From assembly GCF_000585335.1 (NCBI RefSeq), contig NZ_KK073872.1, positions 1,479,283 to 1,543,282 on the forward strand: DNA of 64,000 nt, written 5' to 3'. Both the position numbers and the translations under genes were made by a program. The DNA is from Cloacibacillus evryensis DSM 19522. Its GTDB lineage: Bacteria; Synergistota; Synergistia; Synergistales; Synergistaceae. Below are positions 23,041 through 28,638 of this stretch, piece by piece. The notes under the pieces were generated by a model that was given only the letters and a program-made list of their open reading frames with translations, was not told where the DNA came from and searched no databases. Numbering within the stretch: the stretch's first letter is position 1; the number at the start of each line of letters is the position of its first letter.

Positions 23041-23115
23041 GGGCGGGTAGCTCAGCGGGAGAGCATCTGCCTTACACGCAGAGGGTCGTAGGTTCGAAAC
23101 CTATCCCGCCCACCA
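23041..23115 (+). tRNA. tRNA-Val (TAC)
   Basis: Cloverleaf with 7-bp acceptor gggcggg/cccgccc, anticodon TAC in cttacac, T-loop ttcgaaa and an encoded CCA. First gene of a four-tRNA operon. Confidence 0.97.
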
Positions 23116-23130
23116 TAGGACAACAAGAGT

Positions 23131-23208
23131 GGAGCTGTAGCTCAATTCGGTTAGAGCGCCGGCCTGTCACGCCGGAGGTCGCGGGTTCAAGTCCCGTCAG
23201 CTCCGCCA
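23131..23208 (+). tRNA. tRNA-Asp (GTC)
   Basis: Acceptor ggagctg/cagctcc, anticodon GTC in ctgtcac, T-loop ttcaagt, discriminator G and encoded CCA. Confidence 0.97.
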
Positions 23209-23233
23209 CTTTAAAAAGTTTCGCCTTCGGGAT

Positions 23234-23309
<76 letters not shown>

Positions 23310-23335
23310 CTAAAAATTGAATAGTTCGTAACAAT

Positions 23336-23410
23336 GCGGAAGTAGCTCAGGGGTAGAGCACAACCTTGCCAAGGTTGGGGTCGCGGGTCCGAATCCCGTC
23401 TTCCGCTCCA
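23336..23410 (+). tRNA. tRNA-Gly (GCC)
   Basis: Acceptor gcggaag/cttccgc, anticodon GCC in ttgccaa, T-arm gcggg/cccgt with wobble, discriminator T and encoded CCA. A run of seven T follows directly and may end the operon. Confidence 0.96.
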
Positions 23411-27089: not shown

Positions 27090-27174
27090 ATCCGCCAGCG
27101 TTTTTGCGGTTCACGCTTGCGTCTCTGATATTTCTGTGATAATATCGCCCGGAGACAGTTTAAGGAGAAGATTC

Positions 27175-27237
27175 ATGAACGTTTGCCGTTTTTACAACGC
27201 AAAATCAAATATAAACGGATGGTGGCGCGGTTTTTGA
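27175..27237 (+). CDS. trpL: trp leader peptide
   Basis: A 20-residue ORF, MNVCRFYNAKSNINGWWRGF, with AAGGAG 7 bases upstream of ATG. Tandem Trp codons (27220-27225) lie four codons before the stop, the classic layout of a trp attenuator leader. It is followed by competing hairpins and then trpB. Ribosome stalling at the Trp codons when charged tRNA-Trp is scarce should favour the antiterminator. Confidence 0.9.
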   Translation: MNVCRFYNAKSNINGWWRGF

Positions 27238-27242
27238 TCGCT

Positions 27243-27305
27243 CCACGGTTTCTTCGCGCAAGTTCGGGAGACCTGGAGAAAAGACCGGGTCTCTTTTGTT
27301 TTTTA
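27243..27305 (+). promoter_or_regulatory. Trp-responsive transcription attenuator
   Basis: Terminator hairpin: gagacctgg (27268-27276) pairs with ccgggtctc (27285-27293) with one wobble, followed by TTTTGTTTTTT. Antiterminator: ccacggtttc (27243-27252) can pair with the same gagacctgg arm with one bulge. The Trp-codon region (GTGG at 27222-27225) can in turn pair with CCAC of the antiterminator strand. This gives the four-segment logic of classical attenuation. Confidence 0.85.
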
Positions 27306-27312
27306 GAAAAGA

Positions 27313-27347
27313 AACGAAAGAGGAGAAAAGGACCTCTTTCGTTTTTT
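27313..27347 (+). terminator. Second intrinsic terminator before trpB
   Basis: aacgaaagagg and cctctttcgtt pair perfectly over 11 bp, followed by a T-run. It lies after the attenuator and 43 bp before trpB. A strong terminator here means transcription must read through two hairpins, or a promoter or further regulation lies between. Confidence 0.85.
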
Positions 27348-27390
27348 TATAGAGAGGAATCAGACAAGACAAGATCAGGAGGAGTTTATT

Positions 27391-28590
27391 ATGAGAGACG
27401 AGATAAGAGCGGGATTTCCCGACGGGGCGATGTATGGCGGGTTTGGAGGGTCGTACATTCCCGAGAATCTGGAACCGGTCATGGATGAGATCGCGCGCGA
27501 GTATGAAAAATGCCGCGCGGACGCCTCTTTCAAAGAGGAGTATCTGCGCCTGCTGAAGGAATATGTCGGACGGCCGTCGGCGCTTACGGAGTGCCTCAAT
27601 CTTTCAAAAGAGGCGCGCGGCGTGCGCATTTTCCTCAAACGCGAAGACCTCAACCACACGGGTGCGCATAAAATAAACAACTGCATCGGGCAGGCGCTGC
27701 TGGCCAGACGCATGGGGAAAAAGAAGCTCATCGCGGAGACGGGAGCGGGGATGCACGGCGTCGCCACGGCGACCGTAGCCGCGCTGATGGGCATGGAATG
27801 CGACATATACATGGGAGCTGTGGACATCGGCCGCCAGGCGCCGAACGTGCTGCGCATGAGGGCGCTGGGCGCGAATGTGGTTTCGGTGGAAGAGGGGCAG
27901 AGGACGCTCAAAGAGGCGGTCGACGCCGCTTTGGCCGCGCTCTGCGCCGACACGTCGCTCTTTTACCTCATCGGTTCGGCGGTCGGGCCGCATCCATACC
28001 CGACGATGGTACAGGATTTTCAGCGTATAATCGGCGACGAGGCGCGCGCGCAGATACTCGAGCGCGAAGGGCGTCTGCCGAACGCCGTCGTCGCCTGCGT
28101 AGGTGGCGGAAGCAACGCGATCGGCGCCTTCACGGCCTTCATCGCGGACACGGAGGTCCGCCTCATTGGAGTGGAACCGGCGGGGCGCGGCCTCACATAC
28201 GGCAATCATGCGGCGACGCTTACGATGGGAGCGCCCGGCGTCCTGCACGGATTCAGAAGCTATCTGCTCACCGACGGGGCGGGAAATCCCGCGGAAGTCT
28301 ATTCGATCGCGGCGGGGCTGGATTACCCTTCGGTCGGCCCGGCGCACGCAGACCTCAAAGCCAGCGGGCGCGGGGAATACATCTGTGCCGGGGACAAAGA
28401 GGCGCTGGACGCCTTCAAATTGCTCTGCCGCACGGAGGGTATAATCCCGGCGCTTGAAAGCTCGCACGCCCTTGCCGGCGCGCTGGCCGCAGCCAAAGAG
28501 ATGAATCCCGGCGACATTGTGATAGTGAACCTTTCAGGCCGCGGGGACAAGGACATGGAGACGATCGCGAAGCTCGGCATCATCGGGTAA
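27391..28590 (+). CDS. trpB: Tryptophan synthase beta chain (orphan)
   Basis: PLP enzyme joining indole and serine to form tryptophan. At 399 residues it is of the TrpB1 type; PLP lysine is Lys94 in HTGAHKINN, with AETGAGMHGVATATVAALMG, GGGSNAIGAF phosphate loop and HGFRSYLL. AGGAGG precedes ATG 27391. No trpA or other trp gene is nearby; both neighbours belong to other processes. It may use free indole, or partner with a distant TrpA. Control is by the leader and attenuator upstream. Confidence 0.95.
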   Translation: MRDEIRAGFPDGAMYGGFGGSYIPENLEPVMDEIAREYEKCRADASFKEEYLRLLKEYVGRPSALTECLNLSKEARGVRIFLKREDLNHTGAHKINNCIGQALLARRMGKKKLIAETGAGMHGVATATVAALMGMECDIYMGAVDIGRQAPNVLRMRALGANVVSVEEGQRTLKEAVDAALAALCADTSLFYLIGSAVGPHPYPTMVQDFQRIIGDEARAQILEREGRLPNAVVACVGGGSNAIGAFTAFIADTEVRLIGVEPAGRGLTYGNHAATLTMGAPGVLHGFRSYLLTDGAGNPAEVYSIAAGLDYPSVGPAHADLKASGRGEYICAGDKEALDAFKLLCRTEGIIPALESSHALAGALAAAKEMNPGDIVIVNLSGRGDKDMETIAKLGIIG

Positions 28591-28609: not shown

Positions 28610-28638
28610 TTAAGGCCGTACGCGAAGTACGGCCTTAA
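28610..28638 (+). terminator. Perfect 12-bp hairpin after trpB
   Basis: ttaaggccgtac and gtacggccttaa pair exactly around GCGAA. It lies between the convergent trpB and HdeD-like genes. There is no T-run on the + strand; on the minus strand the next bases are TGTTTGT. It probably serves both 3' ends. Confidence 0.6.

Follow-up and report, generated by a model that had tools for sequence, protein, structure and literature searches.

Upstream of the solitary trpB gene in the window (the whole 64,000-nucleotide stretch of DNA analysed here) lie a short leader ORF, two intrinsic terminators, T1 and T2, and six strands, numbered 1 to 6, from which the alternative helices of the leader RNA can be built (Table 1). 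The window belongs to a Synergistota genome of 3.49 Mb in a single contig (G000). The encoded TrpB matches TIGR00263 with 565.5 bits against a cut-off of 392.5. Its best solved relative is the LBCA TrpB (5ey5), and its closest named relative comes from a Synergistaceae MAG (86% identity). A tRNA cluster, Val-Asp-Phe-Gly, is located at 23041-23410 of the window.

Table 1. Features of the solitary trpB locus, in window coordinates.
Feature	Position	Strand	Basis
Candidate extended -10 promoter element TGTGATAAT, with a weak -35 TTGCGT at 27117-27122	27135-27143	+	inferred from sequence
Shine-Dalgarno of the leader peptide, AAGGAG	27162-27167	+	sequence
Leader peptide MNVCRFYNAKSNINGWWRGF and stop, 20 codons, tandem Trp codons at 27220-27225	27175-27237	+	sequence; like leaders in 50 Synergistota genomes
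1:2 hairpin; 5' arm formed by the Trp codons, stop codon in the loop region	27219-27249	+	fold; co-adaptation z -6.0, 25 genera
2:3 antiterminator of T1, 27241-27254 with 27266-27278, 13 bp, -17.9 kcal/mol	27241-27278	+	duplex energy; co-adaptation z -6.8, held-out z -7.4
T1, first intrinsic terminator, 3:4 hairpin 27266-27295 and U-tract	27266-27305	+	fold; helix covariation
Proposed relay helix 4:5, 27291-27304 CUCUUUUGUUUUUU with 27309-27322 AAGAAACGAAAGAG, 14 bp, -15.8 kcal/mol	27291-27322	+	duplex energy; co-adaptation
T2, second intrinsic terminator, 5:6 hairpin 27308-27323 with 27333-27348, 16 bp, then U-tract	27308-27348	+	fold; kept in 45 of 50 solo-trpB loci
Shine-Dalgarno of trpB, AGGAGGAG	27377-27384	+	sequence
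Solitary trpB, TrpB1 type, 399 aa, monocistronic	27391-28590	+	TIGR00263; convergent gene next
Hairpin after trpB, TTAAGGCCGTACGCGAAGTACGGCCTTAA, possible transcript end	28610-28638	+	sequence

The leader is a short translatable ORF with its own Shine-Dalgarno sequence and tandem cognate codons, as expected of a ribosome-mediated attenuator; the Trp codons are a tandem UGG, and the peptide ends in GWWRGF followed by the stop codon. A first-pass annotation of this DNA had described a 20-codon leader with tandem Trp codons, an antiterminator (27243-27252 with 27268-27276), a terminator and a second strong terminator (27313-27347) ahead of trpB. All of these are present with coordinates correct to within a few bases, the antiterminator being slightly longer than described. 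The annotation had also proposed folding the leader RNA and comparing relatives for Trp codons and covariation; the segment 27158-27390 is more stably folded than every one of 200 dinucleotide shuffles (z -3.7), and the comparison finds a Trp leader in 50 genomes, with co-adapted helices. A consensus promoter scan of the region returns no site at or above its threshold, the candidate -10 element included. At the gathering threshold, Rfam gives no match on the window element or on 15 trp loci, and the Trp_leader family RF00513 leaves the window element unmatched even up to E 5.

Across 188 Synergistota genomes surveyed for solo trpB and other trp genes, a Trp leader lies directly upstream in every readable solo-TrpB locus (47 loci plus L216, L227 and L237, making 50 genomes). 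The Trp run ranges from WW to WWWW, ends 0-4 codons before the stop codon in nearly all loci and forms the 5' arm of 1:2. Upstream of 35 TrpA-linked trpB genes, only two weak leader candidates are seen. T1 is kept in all 50 genomes and is followed by T2 in 45 of the 50 loci; a terminator scan of the region after T1 is positive at 41 of the 47 loci scanned, compared with 11 of 235 shuffles. Five solo-trpB loci are without T2, leaving T1 as the sole terminator, and T2 is thus not essential. A Synergistaceae sub-clade (L007, L008, L010, L032 and L033) lacks T2, in effect a natural deletion of it, and the U-tract of its T1 is long. In a quick tree, 46 of the 47 leader-bearing TrpBs fall into one supported clade adjoining Bacillota TrpBs; the exception, L063, has a TrpB of the TrpA-linked kind and a leader too. 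No comparable leader was found at close TrpB relatives outside the phylum (L092-L170). Two of these, beta-proteobacterial MAGs (L092, L093), carry a solo TrpB 76% identical to that of the window, placed inside the Synergistota clade and lacking the leader, a placement that may reflect horizontal transfer or mis-binning. In L065 and L066, the gene order is trpB-trpA-trpB, with trpA flanked by two TrpB copies.

The 2:3 antiterminator and the 3:4 terminator hairpin of T1 are mutually exclusive, and together with 1:2 they are borne out by folds, co-adaptation and covariation. Among 33 sequences, two-sided changes occur in 11 of the 12 pairs of the T1 helix, a result reached by 0 of 500 shuffles. 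T2 ends about 43 nt before the trpB ATG, a gap too short for a second promoter, so that trpB expression must cross T2. The first-pass annotation, which had recorded this second terminator, gave it no role, although every trpB transcript has to pass through it. The U-tracts of the two terminators are equal, with a mean of 6.5 U for T1 and 6.4 U for T2 in the 8-nt tail and at least 5 U in both for 77 of 79 elements. This equality bears on the reading in which T1 is only a relay hairpin, equivalent to C:D in the strand names of the his leader, and T2 the one working terminator. Such an attenuator would share its topology with a known system, the his leader, also of six strands, in which an additional hairpin follows the pause hairpin and precedes the terminator (PMC1183508). 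Against it stand the U-tract of T1, as good as that of T2, and the loci without T2, where no terminator but T1 is present. We consider this reading quite unlikely.

Strand 4, the 3' arm of T1, is complementary by eye to strand 5, the 5' arm of T2, and the sequences differ among genera: the arm pairs are CUCUUUUG/CGAAAGAG in the window, GCGGCU/AGCCGC in L015, AGCCCCUUAA/UUAAGGGGCU in L043 and GCCCCC/GGGGGC in L017. The strand pairs were compared by setting the duplex energy of each with its own partner against that with a partner swapped from another genus, using 25 genera that are not fully independent of one another, 10,000 permutations and strands cut without shared bases. The pairs 1:2 (z -6.0), 2:3 (z -6.8) and 4:5 (z -5.4) each reach values attained by 0 of 10,000 permutations. 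The control pairs are null across the same 25 genera (3:5 z -0.3, 4:6 z -0.1, 2:4 z -0.5, 2:5 z +1.2). With GC content and length regressed out, 4:5 remains at z -5.1, and it is better than the pairing with unrelated terminators from this clade that were matched for GC (Wilcoxon p 7e-5). In the window alone, 4:5 is unexceptional, with 2 of 29 window terminators pairing with strand 4 equally well or better; this modest excess means that the case for 4:5 rests on the whole set, in which the own pairing is no better than the mean foreign pairing in 8 of the 25 genera. Some of the 4:5 complementarity could stem from a duplication of T1 into T2. A T2 that is a simple copy of T1 would be expected to show equal strength in 3:6, which is only weak (z -2.4, and -1.7 after regression of GC and length). 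The helices 1:2, 2:3, 3:4 and 4:5 are thus co-adapted across conserved elements, and both the anatomy and the comparative evidence lend good support to the annotated reading, in which a lone trpB is under ribosome-mediated Trp attenuation.

A covariance model of the leader-to-T1 part was used to find further full-length elements in other genomes, and these held-out elements took no part in forming the relay idea. They sit before trpD operons, trpE operons, TrpB2-type genes, TrpP transporters, an NSS-type transporter, TIGR04076 proteins and a PaaK-like ligase; the profile matches behind them include the TrpB2 type NF009057 (466 bits) and TrpP PF17099 (36.9 bits, cut-off 27.2). T1 and T2 are both present in all of them with one exception. 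In this set, 4:5 reaches z -3.9 (0 of 10,000 permutations) and 2:3 reaches z -7.4, with the controls 3:5 and 4:6 null. The 2:4 control departs from null here (z -3.9), probably owing to an A-tract before T1 that falls within strand 2 as cut there. R1-model matches limited to the T1 half (positions ~39-87) are ordinary terminators and were set aside; L238, whose candidate leader is the end of a longer ORF, and L240, which has no leader, were rejected as elements.

Several of the held-out contexts merit description in their own right. TrpB2-type TrpB genes stand behind a like attenuator in L206, L209, L210 and L212 (genera g16 and g18). In L203 and L233, an attenuator of the Trp-leader type precedes proteins of the TIGR04076 family, whose function is not assigned; the L233 protein is fused to a ferredoxin-like part, and no leader ORF was located at L203. 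This placement suggests that TIGR04076 proteins may act near tryptophan metabolism. In L217, a Trp leader and two terminators precede a gene resembling phenylacetate-CoA ligase, for which a part in indoleacetate salvage is possible.

The recurrence of 4:5 co-adaptation in two separate sets bears on how T2 is to be understood. The first-pass annotation had called the attenuator classical, which holds for the leader and for 1:2, 2:3 and 3:4 and is incomplete beyond them, with T2 in most loci and an apparent 4:5 link between T1 and T2 that lies outside the four-strand scheme. A four-strand Trp attenuator could account for the locus if T2, whether a leaky terminator of its own or a hairpin with a stabilising role, had no connection to the leader and merely lowered expression: T1 with 2:3 suffices for classical attenuation, T2 resembles any terminator, and some loci do without it. 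Against this stand the co-adaptation of 4:5 in both sets and the quality of the T2 U-tract, as good as that of T1, with which an uncontrolled T2 would block the gene. We judge this reading unlikely. It is very improbable that T2 answers a second signal (protein, tRNA or metabolite) in a two-input gate like that of mgtCBR. Tandem attenuators with separate signals are known (PMC3641672); in the window, however, no second ORF or known riboswitch was found in the leader region, and T1 and T2 are close together and linked by 4:5.

The predicted folds follow the position of the ribosome. When the RNA is exposed from 27236, as with a ribosome stalled on the second Trp codon, 2:3 forms first, T1 appears transiently at 27300-27318, and for transcript ends 27324-27342 the lowest energy belongs to 2:3 with 4:5. 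When the ribosome is at the stop codon and the RNA is exposed from 27249, strand 4 folds into T1 once it emerges, and T2 joins T1 once strand 6 is out. At full-length equilibrium, T1 and T2 together (-40.6) are favoured over the relay fold (-36.8) by 3.8 kcal/mol. Because equilibrium prefers T1 with T2 and the stalled fold transits T1, a relay would need kinetic control. Control of the folding choice by kinetics is a property of known attenuators.

From these features, the element is probably a Trp-responsive, ribosome-mediated attenuator of a solitary trpB, in which six strands make up a relay over two serial intrinsic terminators. In the presence of charged tRNA-Trp, the ribosome would reach the leader stop codon and cover strand 2, and T1 (3:4) would form and terminate transcription. 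Polymerases leaking past T1 would then meet T2 (5:6), which would be active as long as T1 keeps hold of strand 4. With tRNA-Trp uncharged, a ribosome stalled on the Trp codons would let 2:3 form, and T1 would fail; the freed strand 4 would pair with strand 5, causing T2 to fail too, and trpB would be transcribed. TrpB would then make Trp from indole and serine, in G000 as a supplement to the complete trp operon. The expected gain of the relay is low basal read-through. We further lean, with somewhat less assurance, towards a so far undescribed architecture: a single ribosome stall would switch two successive terminators by way of a helix cascade, 2:3 and then 4:5, and this arrangement would control the whole Synergistota Trp regulon (solo trpB, trpB2, the trpD and trpE operons, the TrpP and NSS transporters, the TIGR04076 protein and the PaaK-like ligase). 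A literature search, with most subscription journals outside its reach, yielded no account of Trp leaders with tandem terminators in Synergistota.

The first-pass annotation had stated that this trpB has no trpA, which holds at the window locus and fails for the genome as a whole; its alternative, a TrpA elsewhere, is what the genome search finds. The trpA gene at 1,936,871-1,937,608 adjoins another trpB in a complete operon, trpEGDCFBA, at 1.937 Mb, 431 kb from the window trpB. The window gene is an additional, solitary copy whose product shares 55% identity with the operon TrpB. The operon lies behind a T-box (RF00230; 71.9 bits, E 8.8e-16, UGG before ACC in the specifier region; L047, 8337-8578, minus strand), a score below the gathering score of 93 and seen only with an E-value threshold. 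No Trp leader ORF was found at this operon locus, and across G000 the R1 model gives one convincing full-length element only, that of the window. Tryptophan genes of one genome are thus served by two kinds of tRNA-Trp sensor that differ in mechanism, a T-box and a leader peptide.

With a trpA present in G000, the lone TrpB might act as a back-up beta subunit for the TrpA of the trp operon rather than in indole salvage. The residues tied to TrpA-independent activity are in line with such a role: at the LBCA-Res6 stand-alone positions, the window TrpB has S, L, S, S, F and R, where LBCA has E, E, T, S, A and M, and with 1 of 6 retained, activity without TrpA is not predicted by the LBCA marker. 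The trp operon, however, has a trpB of its own, and the wider set of genomes points the other way. Among near-complete genomes (at least 90% complete, at most 5% contaminated), 17 combine an attenuated solo trpB with the absence of any trpA above the cut-off; trpC (IGPS) is missing as well from 16 of them. These 16 genomes, lacking trpA and trpC, would be unable to produce indole along the standard pathway; this is consistent with salvage of indole from outside and agrees with the regulated indole salvage suggested in the first-pass annotation. The back-up role is doubtful, though it keeps some chance. Tryptophanase-family genes (NF009709) occur in 49 of the 188 genomes, and the same search of G000 found none; PF01212 was dropped as a marker for mixing in threonine aldolases. 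In bifidobacteria, TrpB converts indole to Trp (PMC11085991), and Thermococcus TrpB1 and TrpB2 serve indole salvage, as cited in the same paper. For genes of this kind, regulated indole salvage is the predicted role, in gut and in anaerobic Synergistota.

The architecture can be placed beside several known systems. By this comparison, Synergistota would join the few phyla for which leader-peptide attenuation is named in the literature consulted (Proteobacteria, Actinobacteria and some Firmicutes). Like the E. coli trp leader (RF00513), the window element has a short peptide with tandem Trp codons, a choice among 1:2, 2:3 and 3:4, and a terminator with a U-tract; unlike it, with its four strands and one terminator before a full trp operon that is also under a repressor, the Synergistota loci in 45 of 50 cases have more than a single terminator between leader and gene. 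This suggests a means of limiting the leak of a single terminator without a repressor, namely two serial terminators that a single ribosome event releases together. The T-box (RF00230), present on the trp operon of G000, likewise senses tRNA-Trp charging through termination, and differs in that the RNA binds tRNA directly and translation is not needed; G000 would be a genome in which a T-box and a leader peptide run two tryptophan routes side by side. In mgtCBR, two attenuation steps are also arranged in series within one leader (PMC3641672), with two ORFs, two signals (ATP and proline) and no intrinsic terminators, as opposed to one ORF and one signal for both terminators in the window element. 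The rimP-leader of some Gammaproteobacteria shares a second terminator in tandem, and the accessible part of its description presents no comparable amino-acid leader peptide (PMC2965389). The TrpB2 of Thermococcus kodakarensis, as cited in PMC11085991, is likewise a second TrpB for indole salvage; the window protein differs in being of the TrpB1 type (TIGR00263) and in having an attenuator.

The six-strand topology is like that of the his leader of Salmonella and E. coli, where a further hairpin likewise separates the leader hairpin from the terminator and gives a relay. To our knowledge, this extra hairpin is not itself a terminator, a feature that we take as defining the his leader. The window element shares the pairing of strand 4 with strand 5 as a pairing potential (z -5.4 across the 25 genera; held-out z -3.9), and differs in its codons, Trp instead of His, and in its middle hairpin, 3:4, which has a full U-tract. 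Elf and Ehrenberg proposed that the extra hairpin of the his leader lowers basal read-through (PMC1183508). In conclusion, the anatomy of the window element points to a ribosome-mediated attenuator, and what appears to be new against the his leader is that its middle hairpin would also be a terminator.
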